DNA of 20,318 nucleotides from a virus. The stretch is taken from positions 1-20,318 of the IMG/VR virus record IMGVR_UViG_3300033571_013147. One strand, 5' to 3'. Below, in pieces: positions 261 through 20,171 of this stretch; the first letter of the stretch is position 1, and each line of letters opens with the position of its first letter. The notes under the pieces were generated by a model. The model saw nothing but the letters and a program-made list of their open reading frames with translations. It had not been told where the DNA came from and did not search any database. Both the position numbers and the translations under genes were made by a program.

Positions 261-298
261 TTGACAACATTGCTCTGATCTGCTTTACTTTGTGTATG
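261..298 (+). promoter_or_regulatory. Early promoter, copy 1 of a three-copy module
   Basis: TTGACA (261-266), 17-base spacer, TTTACT (284-289). CACTTGACAA and GATCTGCTTTACTTTGT are identical in the copies at 1800 and 20171(-). The predicted +1 is A296, which is also the first base of an ATG (296-298). It drives the gene block from 329 onward. The -35 is perfect, the -10 matches four of six consensus positions, and the spacer is ideal for a sigma-A/sigma-70-type factor. Confidence 0.85.
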
Positions 299-328
299 GG
301 CAAGAACACAACCACCAAGGAGACCACA

Positions 329-616
329 ATGATCACCAAGGCAGCAATCGCGAAATGGGCAGCGGAGAACCGCGTGCCGGGATTCGAGGACGTGTACAAG
401 TTCGTCGAGCGTCACGTCTGGGACATCACGTCGTACAACAGCCTGTGCTACGTGGGTATCCCGGCTGTGATCCCGACCAAGGCAGCCGCCTGTGACGAAC
501 TCGCCACTTTCTGGTCGCAGTACGCAAACAACGGCAATAATCGAAGCCAGTTCAATCAGCAGGTCGTCTACGTTGCCCGTCACCTCCAGCAGTATTACAC
601 GGAGAAGGGACAGTGA
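329..616 (+). CDS. Hypothetical early protein
   Basis: 95 residues from ATG 329, chosen because AAGGAG lies at 317-322 with a six-base spacer. A second in-frame ATG at 296, coinciding with the predicted transcription start, would add 11 residues (MGKNTTTKETT). I do not recognise the family. It is a small soluble protein, aromatic and Gln/Asn rich in the C-terminal half, with no membrane segment or cysteine cluster (two isolated Cys). First gene of the early block; its stop overlaps the next gene's GTG (GTGA), indicating translational coupling. Function unknown; early expression is inferred from the promoter. Confidence 0.8.
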   Translation: MITKAAIAKWAAENRVPGFEDVYKFVERHVWDITSYNSLCYVGIPAVIPTKAAACDELATFWSQYANNGNNRSQFNQQVVYVARHLQQYYTEKGQ

Positions 617-1753: not shown

Positions 1754-1779
1754 GACGCCCCGCCTTTGCGCGGGGCGTC
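1754..1779 (+). terminator. Intrinsic terminator after the HTH gene
   Basis: Perfect 10-bp GC-rich stem, GACGCCCCGC and GCGGGGCGTC, with a six-base loop (CTTTGC), followed by TCTGTGTTT. Ten bases after the HTH stop codon and 20 bases before the next promoter's -35. It closes the first early transcript. Confidence 0.85.
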
Positions 1780-1799: not shown

Positions 1800-1837
1800 T
1801 TGACAAGATCCTCTCGATCTGCTTTACTTTGTTTATG
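1800..1837 (+). promoter_or_regulatory. Early promoter, copy 2 of a three-copy module
   Basis: TTGACA (1800-1805), 17-base spacer, TTTACT (1823-1828); predicted +1 is A1835, first base of an ATG. Shares CACTTGACAA and GATCTGCTTTACTTTGT with the other two copies. Drives the 1868-2700 genes. Confidence 0.85.
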
Positions 1838-1867
1838 AGCAAGACGTTCACCACCAAGGAGACCCAG

Positions 1868-2056
1868 ATGGACATCACCCAGTACACCAGCGAAGAGATC
1901 GCAGCCGTCGGGCGCTACATGCGCGAGTTCGACCCCGGTTTTGTCGAGCAACTCGAAGAGGACGACGCCAACCTCACCGACGAGAACATCGGAGAGCAGA
2001 TGCTCGAGTGCGACATCGACGAGTTCGAAGAGATCCTCGACAGCATCACCTTCTAA
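1868..2056 (+). CDS. Very acidic small early protein
   Basis: 62 residues from ATG 1868, with AAGGAG seven bases ahead; an in-frame ATG at 1835, at the predicted +1, would add MSKTFTTKETQ. By hand count about 20 Asp/Glu against two Arg and no Lys, giving a net charge near -18. No cysteine cluster or membrane segment. I do not recognise the family. Strongly acidic small early phage proteins are sometimes DNA mimics that block restriction or other DNA-binding proteins (Ocr and ArdA are known cases), but here only composition and context support that. First gene after the second early promoter. Confidence 0.8.
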   Translation: MDITQYTSEEIAAVGRYMREFDPGFVEQLEEDDANLTDENIGEQMLECDIDEFEEILDSITF

Positions 2057-2752: not shown

Positions 2753-4315
2753 CTAAGGCACCTGCACGATCTCAACAGGCGATTCGACCGCGTCACTTAG
2801 ACGAATACGGTGCTGAGCCACAAGCCCGTGGCGTGGGTGCATCACCATCATGTGCTGCGACGGACTCGACGCCCCACCTCGTCCGATGCTCAGGTTCGTT
2901 TGACCAACCCATGGTCCAGACCAGATCCGCACCAGATCGCTCGAAAGGCTGATCTGGGCAGGACGATGAAAATGCCCAGACAACTGGAGCACAGGACGAA
3001 CGCCAGTCGACACCATCGCAGTAAGGCTGTTACGCATGCCGGTAACAACTGGCACACCGATAAGACCGCCGCCCTTGTCCTGCTCGCCATGGGTCAGCAG
3101 CACAGTACCACCACAGGTCTGGAAATACACAGCCCTACGAGCCTCAGAGTCGTAATAGGAGATTCCACCACGATCTTCTGACTGTTCGATGATCGCTCGA
3201 GTCATCTCGTAAGTCAGATAATCGTAGTTCAATGACGCAGGTAACGAACCGGCTGACCTGCCACCGTGTTGTCCATGGTTACCTACCACGCTGACCACTG
3301 CGATCTGCTCCACGTTGAACTGCCTAGCGCGATTTGCAATGTGAAGCAACGCGGCAGACCACAACCGGCTGAGCCGCACGACCTGTTCGCCTGCGTCCAT
3401 CGCGAGATGCCACGCGCTCTGTCCCTTGAACACATCCTCGCCCTCTACAAAGTCACCACCCTGTGCGATCCAGAGCGTGCCTAGCGGGTTCGAGTTCGCG
3501 GTGTTCTCGATCAGAGCGTCGACCGCTTCGAGGTAACGCTCGAGCCTGTCCTCGAAAATCTCCGGCGAATACGCGCCACCTGGCACCTCGTCAGGGTCAA
3601 CAAACATGCCGAACTGCATGTCGCTCACGTGCAGGATCACGTCTACCTTGCTGCGATCCGTGCGCACCTTAGCCGGAGCGAGTCGCGGCGGAGCCTCAAC
3701 CGCCACCATCTCTGCCGCTTCCTCGATCGTGGCTCGCAACTCCGCCAGTTCCGCGCTGCCCTTCTCGAGATCGCGAATCCGGCGCTGCAACATGGTCACT
3801 TTCGGGCTTCTGGTCTGCTGAATCTCACTGACTCGAAGGTCGCGCCTGTTCAACGTGCGGCGCACAGTCTCCGGCGTGCAATCGATCAACGCAGAGAACC
3901 GTTCCATCCCGACCAGCGAAATGAAACCGACCAGTTCGTCATCAGTCGCGCGGTCGAGCAACTCGCCAGACAAAGACCTCCGTGCGTCCTGTTGCCATTT
4001 CGATTTGATTCCGAACTCGCGCATCCATCTGCGAGCCGTCTTGTCAGACACCCCACGAGACGCACAGAAAGCCACCAGAGAGCCTTCTTCTTCCAAGGCG
4101 GCTTCTAATGCCTCTGAACTGTCGAAAGGACAAGAAGATGGCCTTCCTAGGCGCTCGGAACGTGTCGACGCCCCCAACTCGTGCGCCCAACGTCTGAGCG
4201 TATTCTCAGAGCGCCCAAGGTGACGTGCCAAACCACTCAAAGAGCGATGCTCAACAAGCGCGTCTTCGAACTCTTCCTTCGACCCGAACGGGTTAGGCAC
4301 ACGCGGAGCAGCCAC
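2753..4315 (-). CDS. Calcineurin-like metallophosphoesterase with N-terminal tandem HTH domains
   Basis: 520 residues from GTG 4315, with a strong GGGAGGTGG ahead. Residues about 21-48, 78-103 and 124-162 each look like helix-turn-helix units (for example SLSGLARHLGRSENTLRRW and a similar second one), followed by a coiled coil at about 173-205. The C-terminal 300 residues carry the metallophosphoesterase motifs: SDMQFG (D232, Q234 in place of the usual His), GGDFVEG (D288), GNHG (345-348), THGE (H409) and GHFH (H448, H450). Family members are metal-dependent phosphodiesterases or nucleases. The HTH array suggests the activity is delivered to specific DNA. Last gene of the late operon, 14 bases after the endolysin stop. 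It could serve DNA processing at packaging or lysis; the substrate is unknown. Confidence 0.9.
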   Translation of the reverse strand: MAAPRVPNPFGSKEEFEDALVEHRSLSGLARHLGRSENTLRRWAHELGASTRSERLGRPSSCPFDSSEALEAALEEEGSLVAFCASRGVSDKTARRWMREFGIKSKWQQDARRSLSGELLDRATDDELVGFISLVGMERFSALIDCTPETVRRTLNRRDLRVSEIQQTRSPKVTMLQRRIRDLEKGSAELAELRATIEEAAEMVAVEAPPRLAPAKVRTDRSKVDVILHVSDMQFGMFVDPDEVPGGAYSPEIFEDRLERYLEAVDALIENTANSNPLGTLWIAQGGDFVEGEDVFKGQSAWHLAMDAGEQVVRLSRLWSAALLHIANRARQFNVEQIAVVSVVGNHGQHGGRSAGSLPASLNYDYLTYEMTRAIIEQSEDRGGISYYDSEARRAVYFQTCGGTVLLTHGEQDKGGGLIGVPVVTGMRNSLTAMVSTGVRPVLQLSGHFHRPAQISLSSDLVRIWSGPWVGQTNLSIGRGGASSPSQHMMVMHPRHGLVAQHRIRLSDAVESPVEIVQVP

Positions 4316-19670: not shown

Positions 19671-19699
19671 AGTATATCACCAAGGTGTGGGCGTGTTGA
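19671..19699 (-). promoter_or_regulatory. Putative late promoter of the structural operon
   Basis: On the leftward strand TGATATACT provides an extended -10 (TATACT at 19676-19671 preceded by TGA). With 17 bases spacing, TCAACA (19699-19694) is a -35 matching four of six positions. The +1 would lie near 19664, 20 bases before the first late ATG. No other promoter of this quality was noticed in the 15-kb structural operon. Confidence 0.65.
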
Positions 19700-19716: not shown

Positions 19717-19744
19717 GCGCCCCCGTCTTCGAGACCGGGGGCGC
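19717..19744 (-). terminator. Terminator after the conserved small gene
   Basis: GCGCCCCC / GGGGGCGC stem continued by G-C and TCT/AGA pairs around a single-base bulge, with a three-base loop. It follows the stop at 19756 by about 11 bases on the leftward strand, and separates that gene from the late operon. The T-run afterwards is weak (TGTGTTTG). Confidence 0.8.
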
Positions 19745-19755
19745 GTAACGTGCTC

Positions 19756-20100
19756 CTAGAACGAAAAGTCGTGATAATGGGAGCGGTGACCGATCGAGAG
19801 GTTTCCGAACGACCCGTCCTTCTTGACCTTGAACTCGCTGATCCGTGCGTCCGGGCAGCGCTCGTAGCGGTAGGTCTGGGCGTCGCTCATGCCGTTGTTG
19901 TCGGTGCGGATTGCTTTGTCACGCTGCACGAGTACTGCGCTGATCTGACCCTTGCGCTTGCCGGTCTTGAAGCGCTTGATGTCGACGATAGTGCACGCAG
20001 TGCGATCTGTGTACCAGCAAACGGTTGCTCCCATTCCGATTTCCGGCTCCGGGTTAGCACTGCCCAGCATGATATTGCTGATGAGGCTGTTGGTATGCAT
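19756..20100 (-). CDS. Conserved phage protein of unknown function
   Basis: 114 residues from ATG 20100, with AAGGAG ahead; an in-frame ATG at 20136, at the predicted +1, would add MGTNNTNTKETP. The sequence has a pattern I associate with small phage proteins of unknown role: IGMGATVCWYTDRTACTIVD, then a Lys-rich turn, RTDNNGMSDAQTY, and the end YHDFSF. It looks like a small beta-barrel. It carries its own early-type promoter and terminator, so it is a single-gene unit set between the late operon and whatever lies beyond the right edge. Confidence 0.85.
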   Translation of the reverse strand: MHTNSLISNIMLGSANPEPEIGMGATVCWYTDRTACTIVDIKRFKTGKRKGQISAVLVQRDKAIRTDNNGMSDAQTYRYERCPDARISEFKVKKDGSFGNLSIGHRSHYHDFSF

Positions 20101-20133
20101 GGGAGTCTCCTTTGTGTTGGTGTTGTTCGTTCC

Positions 20134-20171
20134 CATACACAAAGTAAAGCAGATCAAGACACACTTGTCAA
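20134..20171 (-). promoter_or_regulatory. Early promoter, copy 3 of a three-copy module
   Basis: Leftward: TTGACA (20171-20166), 17-base spacer, TTTACT (20148-20143), predicted +1 A20136, which begins an ATG. Same CACTTGACAA and GATCTGCTTTACTTTGT blocks as the copies at 261 and 1800, but on the other strand. Confidence 0.85.

Follow-up and report, generated by a model that had tools for sequence, protein, structure and literature searches.

Can a phage messenger open directly on a start codon that shares its reading frame with a second start, led by a Shine-Dalgarno (SD) sequence, a few codons downstream? This question is raised by a promoter-leader module that stands three times in the stretch of DNA analysed here (the window), a 20,318-base virus record that is a fragment from an uncultured virus of bacteria and carries a tailed-phage gene set (portal, protease, capsid, tail, tape measure, endolysin, and exonuclease). 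The modules occupy 261-331 (+), 1800-1870 (+), and 20171-20098 (-), and the order from 5' to 3' is the same in 3/3: TTGACA-N17-TTTACT (with TG-C before the hexamer)-N6-ATG, an A/C-rich stretch, and AAGGAG-N6-ATG. The first and second ATG are called AUG1 and AUG2 below.

261-289, plus strand: module 1 promoter, read directly as TTGACA (261-266), TG (281-282) within the N17 spacer, and -10 TTTACT (284-289); in register in modules 2 and 3, and alike in geometry in L214 (see below)
296-298, plus strand: module 1 AUG1, at the predicted +1, 6 nt after the -10 (putative transcription start)
317-322, plus strand: module 1 Shine-Dalgarno AAGGAG, 6 nt before AUG2
329-616, plus strand: module 1 SD-led ORF, 95 aa (106 aa counted from AUG1 at 296), with no PHROG match
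1754-1779, plus strand: terminator-like hairpin upstream of module 2
1800-1828, plus strand: module 2 promoter, TTGACA-N17-TTTACT with extended -10 TGC
1835-1837, plus strand: module 2 AUG1, at the predicted +1
1856-1861, plus strand: module 2 Shine-Dalgarno AAGGAG
1868-2056, plus strand: module 2 SD-led ORF, 62 aa (73 aa counted from AUG1)
20143-20171, minus strand: module 3 promoter, TTGACA-N17-TTTACT with extended -10 TGC
20134-20136, minus strand: module 3 AUG1, at the predicted +1
20107-20112, minus strand: module 3 Shine-Dalgarno AAGGAG
19756-20100, minus strand: module 3 SD-led ORF, 114 aa (126 aa from AUG1), between the terminase and a 70-aa gene
19717-19744, minus strand: hairpin GCGCCCCCGGTCTCGAAGACGGGGGCGC, 3' of the module 3 gene, read by eye and absent from the terminator scan list
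19671-19699, minus strand: fourth promoter, TCAACA-N17-TATACT with TG extension and no ATG at +1, which supports TTTACT as the module -10

We consider it moderately probable that the module is a portable dual-initiation cassette, leaderless and SD-led in one frame, which would serve small accessory genes from a predicted start site and with two predicted isoforms. The AUG pair itself, which the original prediction had described as in frame and free of stops in all three modules, was confirmed on re-reading. The two codons lie 33, 33, and 36 nt apart (modules 1, 2, and 3) in the leaders ATGGGCAAGAACACAACCACCAAGGAGACCACA-ATG (296-331, +), ATGAGCAAGACGTTCACCACCAAGGAGACCCAG-ATG (1835-1870, +), and ATGGGAACGAACAACACCAACACAAAGGAGACTCCC-ATG (20136-20098, -), with the extension peptides MGKNTTTKETT, MSKTFTTKETQ, and MGTNNTNTKETP. 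AUG1 stands exactly 6 nt 3' of TTTACT in 3/3 modules, with the extended -10 TG and with TTGACA 17 nt upstream, and only promoter sequence, with no SD, lies before it. The window holds 5 copies of AAGGAGAC against 0.66 expected.

The best-surviving alternative, which we rate as rather unlikely, is that only the SD-led start is used. The ATG at +1 would then be part of a copied promoter/start-site block (TTTACTTTGTNTATG), or transcription would start at G298, and the frame would be inherited from one ancestral module. With TTTACT as the -10 the +1 falls on A296, and with the overlapping TACTTT, 2 nt downstream, on G298. TTTACT does not have the A that is usual at -11, and TACTTT carries both the A and the T favoured by sigma factors. 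However, the fourth promoter of the window (TATACT) and those of another phage, L214 (TG-G-TA[T/C]ACT-N6-ATG), are in register with TTTACT and not with TACTTT; by this comparison A296 is the likelier +1.

By themselves the three modules give weak support to the in-frame claim, as the copies are related and A/C-rich leaders are seldom closed. Each independent leader has a chance of 1/3 of being in frame, and 90% of in-frame leaders of module composition, or 78% at genome composition, would be open. The -35-side spacer has diverged among the copies (7-9/14 identities), whereas TGC-TTTACT-TTGTNT-ATG is almost invariant across all three, so the ATG is conserved as part of a larger block and its conservation is inseparable from that of the promoter, as expected if only the SD-led start is used. 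Given this relatedness, the copies carry only about two independent 1/3 events, and their evidential content is an ancestral leader frame plus one length change by a multiple of three. Both window lengths, 33 and 36, are nevertheless in frame. The Thr-Lys-Glu-Thr reading that the original prediction saw in every leader is present in all copies but adds no evidence, because AAGGAG placed 6 nt before ATG necessarily reads Lys-Glu; a conserved peptide was ruled out on this ground, and ACCACCAAGGAGACC is often the SD context in actinophages. Codon-usage log-odds favour frame 0 in the three leaders (8.3, 9.9, and 7.8 bits; other frames negative), with p ~0.015 each for the variable part alone (permutation), and the non-modular SD leader p92 is likewise codon-like (7.8 bits). 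Folding of the three leader mRNAs gave no unusually stable structure (z 0.8, 0.2, 0.15). It is only when other phages are added that the in-frame claim exceeds chance.

Comparable leaders were sought in IMG/VR by a frame-blind scan (TTGACA-N14-TG-N-TNTANT-N6-ATG-N(10-34)-AGGAG), which matched at least 119 loci. Among the loci listed, the clearest analogues are L214 and G030, the latter being the record of L225. In L214, TG-G-TA[T/C]ACT-N6-RTG is found at 6/6 promoters (ATG or GTG at +1). Five of these six have an SD-led start 33, 33, 36, 27, and 27 nt away (+34, +34, +37, +28, +28), always in frame and open (5/5), and the sixth is without an SD start. The SD-start spacing varies (5, 5, 6, 6, and 8 nt); the SD therefore does not dictate the phase. 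The extension peptides are others again (MDRATTTKENT among them). G030 has nine promoter sites of the TG-N-T[T/C]TAAT type, with ATG or GTG exactly at +1 in five. Two of those five are followed by an SD-led start, 30 and 36 nt away, both in frame and open, and the remaining three have no SD start and open an ORF of 58-192 aa from +1, as expected of leaderless genes. One further G030 leader has ACC at +1 and only an SD start, yet that start is a multiple of 3 away. The same record (L249-L251) holds genes beginning MET (ATGGAGACC/ATC), and the near-identical TTGACA...TTTAAT promoters before them look like a leaderless promoter set used throughout the phage.

Taken together, L214 and G030 have seven leaders that combine ATG or GTG at +1 with an SD-led start, and 7/7 keep the frame without a stop, at four lengths (27, 30, 33, and 36) and several SD spacings, which argues against use of the SD-led start alone. 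So does the +1 codon being the sole recognised start of the SD-less genes in both phages. These genes too are driven by the same promoters, which makes leaderless use of the +1 codon plausible. If each distinct length per phage is counted once (window 33, 36; L214 27, 33, 36; G030 30, 36), 7/7 are in frame, or (1/3)^7 = 0.0005 under a free frame, a value that is indicative only as L214 and G030 were singled out as analogues after seeing the scan. The dual-start reading of the original prediction is supported by these leaders; a special function of the long form is unsupported, with the extension unconserved beyond the SD-coded residues.

The wider comparison is less uniform. Among the matches listed, 90 distinct sites have an SD-led start, with frames 0/1/2 at 42/19/29 and 32 of the 42 in-frame leaders open. 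Once related leaders are collapsed the in-frame excess among these matches is not significant (16/34, p = 0.067), so there is no proof of a general in-frame rule across phages. A universal rule was rejected on counter-examples among related leaders: 30 nt in L185 against 29 nt in L151, 27 nt in L240 against 28 nt in L189/L234, and 42 nt in L172 against 43 nt in L199, with a stop before the SD. Frame retention across leaders, proposed originally as the comparison on which the claim would stand or fall, thus holds throughout the seven leaders of L214 and G030 and fails in these three sets. In many other phages, among the matches listed, the +1 ATG is in another frame or meets a stop, which also speaks for the SD-led start alone. 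Four of the records listed exceed 60% GC (L172, L199, L214, and L225), and frames are mixed in the other two, L172 and L199. The L157 family has mostly a 10-codon +1 ORF that ends before the SD; in L157, L183, L193, L200, and L210 the +1 ATG opens a short conserved ORF (MDGAVP...), which in 4/5 stops just short of the next gene's SD. A family of leaders from low-GC phages among L130-L248 (e.g., L178, L187, L198, L242, L245) has an 8-codon ORF opened by the +1 ATG, ending TAATG on the SD-led start of a gene whose product begins MATR, apparently a leaderless, translation-coupled leader peptide.

A second alternative is that the first AUG is regulatory: ribosomes from AUG1 would pass over the SD and, by occlusion or activation, control how the second start is used, the AUG1 product being incidental. 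The SD is indeed part of the first reading frame, with ~20 nt between it and the mRNA 5' end, and some out-of-frame leaders of other phages have a +1 ORF that stops exactly at, or overlaps, the second start (TAATG or ATGA) in the manner typical of coupled genes. Re-initiation coupling, however, needs a stop near the second start, whereas the frame runs through in the window, L214, and G030, and the leaders fold with no unusual stability; we regard this explanation as improbable. That function lies with the extended form, the internal SD being a minor or relict site, is very improbable. The first frame does stay open across the gene with codon-like usage, and G030 has purely leaderless-looking genes, but AAGGAG keeps its ideal 6-nt spacing in 3/3 modules while the intervening peptide is unconserved, and the 70-aa gene and other genes of the window phage have SD-led starts.

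The relatives found for the window phage do not carry the module. Exact-pattern scans of IMG/VR and 84,980 genomes found no module homologue, three exact-pattern matches proving unrelated on inspection by eye, and the window DNA had no match among named phages. The tail protein led to relatives at 68% identity (L089, L091) and at about 48% (L090, L093, L094); the module is absent from relatives found via the portal protein and via the tail protein, and a scan with the capsid protein found no relative. No homologous leader of the window phage was found outside its record in the collections searched, and the test within its own lineage consists of the three copies. The module 1 protein has a single match, apparently by chance, and leader likeness to Corynebacterium phage PSonyx and Mycobacterium phages is limited to a shared A/C-rich SD context, without the module promoter and +1 ATG. 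Capsid and tail relatives suggest an actinobacterial affinity of the host. In the relative L091, four small genes start TANNNT-N6-ATG, a leaderless-gene geometry, with no SD evident just upstream.

Several features of the surrounding genes may also be recorded. The fourth promoter drives the 70-aa gene (19644-19432) via a 20-nt SD leader. A shared CTGTGTTT-NN-ACACATCA follows terminator-like hairpins right before the next promoter (1780-1799, +; 19715-19695, -), which suggests a common terminator-promoter joint. A 103-aa protein (1433-1744, +) has a repressor-like helix-turn-helix N-terminus by PHROG matches and a hydrophobic C-terminal segment resembling a membrane anchor. An exonuclease-like protein (2753-4315, -; PHROG 284) weakly matches HNH endonuclease and transposase families in its N-terminal part.

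How would such a dual-initiation cassette work? A host sigma-70-type promoter (TTGACA-N17, TG-extended T[A/T]TACT) would be placed so that the mRNA begins on the A of ATG. The messenger would open with a leaderless AUG, followed ~11-12 codons later, in the same frame, by an SD and its AUG, and ribosomes could enter at the 5' end by the leaderless route or at the SD. Because the starts share a frame with no stop between them, both routes would make the same protein, the leaderless-start form carrying an 11-12-residue extension rich in Thr, Asn, and Lys. Expression might thereby be independent of any single initiation route, and no out-of-frame 5' ORF would run across the real start. If the host translates leaderless mRNA as mycobacteria do, the +1 ATG would serve as a start, and a +1 ORF in a different frame could disturb initiation at the SD-led one. 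The start at A296, leaderless initiation, the two isoforms, and the benefit are what we infer from sequence. The extension is probably tolerated rather than functional, since extension peptides are unconserved between phages.

A broader version of this proposal is that a standard cassette is in use in several phage lineages: the geometry of the promoter would place a leaderless AUG at +1, and selection would hold the SD start in its frame, so that accessory proteins are made under either 70S leaderless or 30S SD-led initiation. We hold this to be possible, if somewhat short of probable. If true, such cassettes would follow one simple rule of design (promoter, +1 AUG, SD start, one frame) and would be a natural case of the leaderless and SD-led modes of initiation serving one protein on one messenger, and annotated starts would be misplaced in many phage genomes.

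Among known systems, phage morons are inserted accessory genes that have a promoter and a terminator of their own. Module 3 and its 114-aa gene are an insertion, because the homologue of the 70-aa gene comes almost directly after the terminase in G003 (matched parts about 40 nt apart) and adjoins it in G026. The gene is thus missing at the syntenic place in relatives, and module 3 has its own promoter sequence and a following hairpin that may be a terminator (19744-19717, seen by eye and missed by the terminator scan). The definition of morons, however, includes no dual start, and modules 1 and 2 stand at the head of multi-gene runs. Like the modules, the SAS and ESAS elements of cluster K mycobacteriophages (PMC3203893) recur shortly before the start of numerous phage genes. 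SAS are linked to translation starts, and ESAS have 17-bp inverted repeats in addition, whereas the module consists of a promoter and a leader whose ATG is at +1; the inverted-repeat pairs listed for the window include none that is local to the modules. In Shigella, one gene gives two proteins, VirF30 and VirF21 (PMC5101355), from two in-frame starts, one of them leaderless. There a gene-internal promoter gives the leaderless messenger and the shorter form, whereas in the modules, with one promoter, the leaderless start would give the longer form. A further parallel is found in mycobacteria, which translate messengers beginning with ATG or GTG (PMC4633059), and in which upstream in-frame RTGs at +1 extend annotated genes (Shell et al., 2015, PMC4633059). 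The modules are alike in having ATG at the predicted mRNA 5' end, in frame upstream of a downstream start as is sometimes the case in mycobacteria. The mycobacterial +1 RTG mainly corrects an annotated start, whereas in the modules the predicted messenger that opens on the +1 ATG also carries, further on and in frame with it, a strong SD-led start, and the arrangement is repeated as a cassette ahead of unrelated genes.
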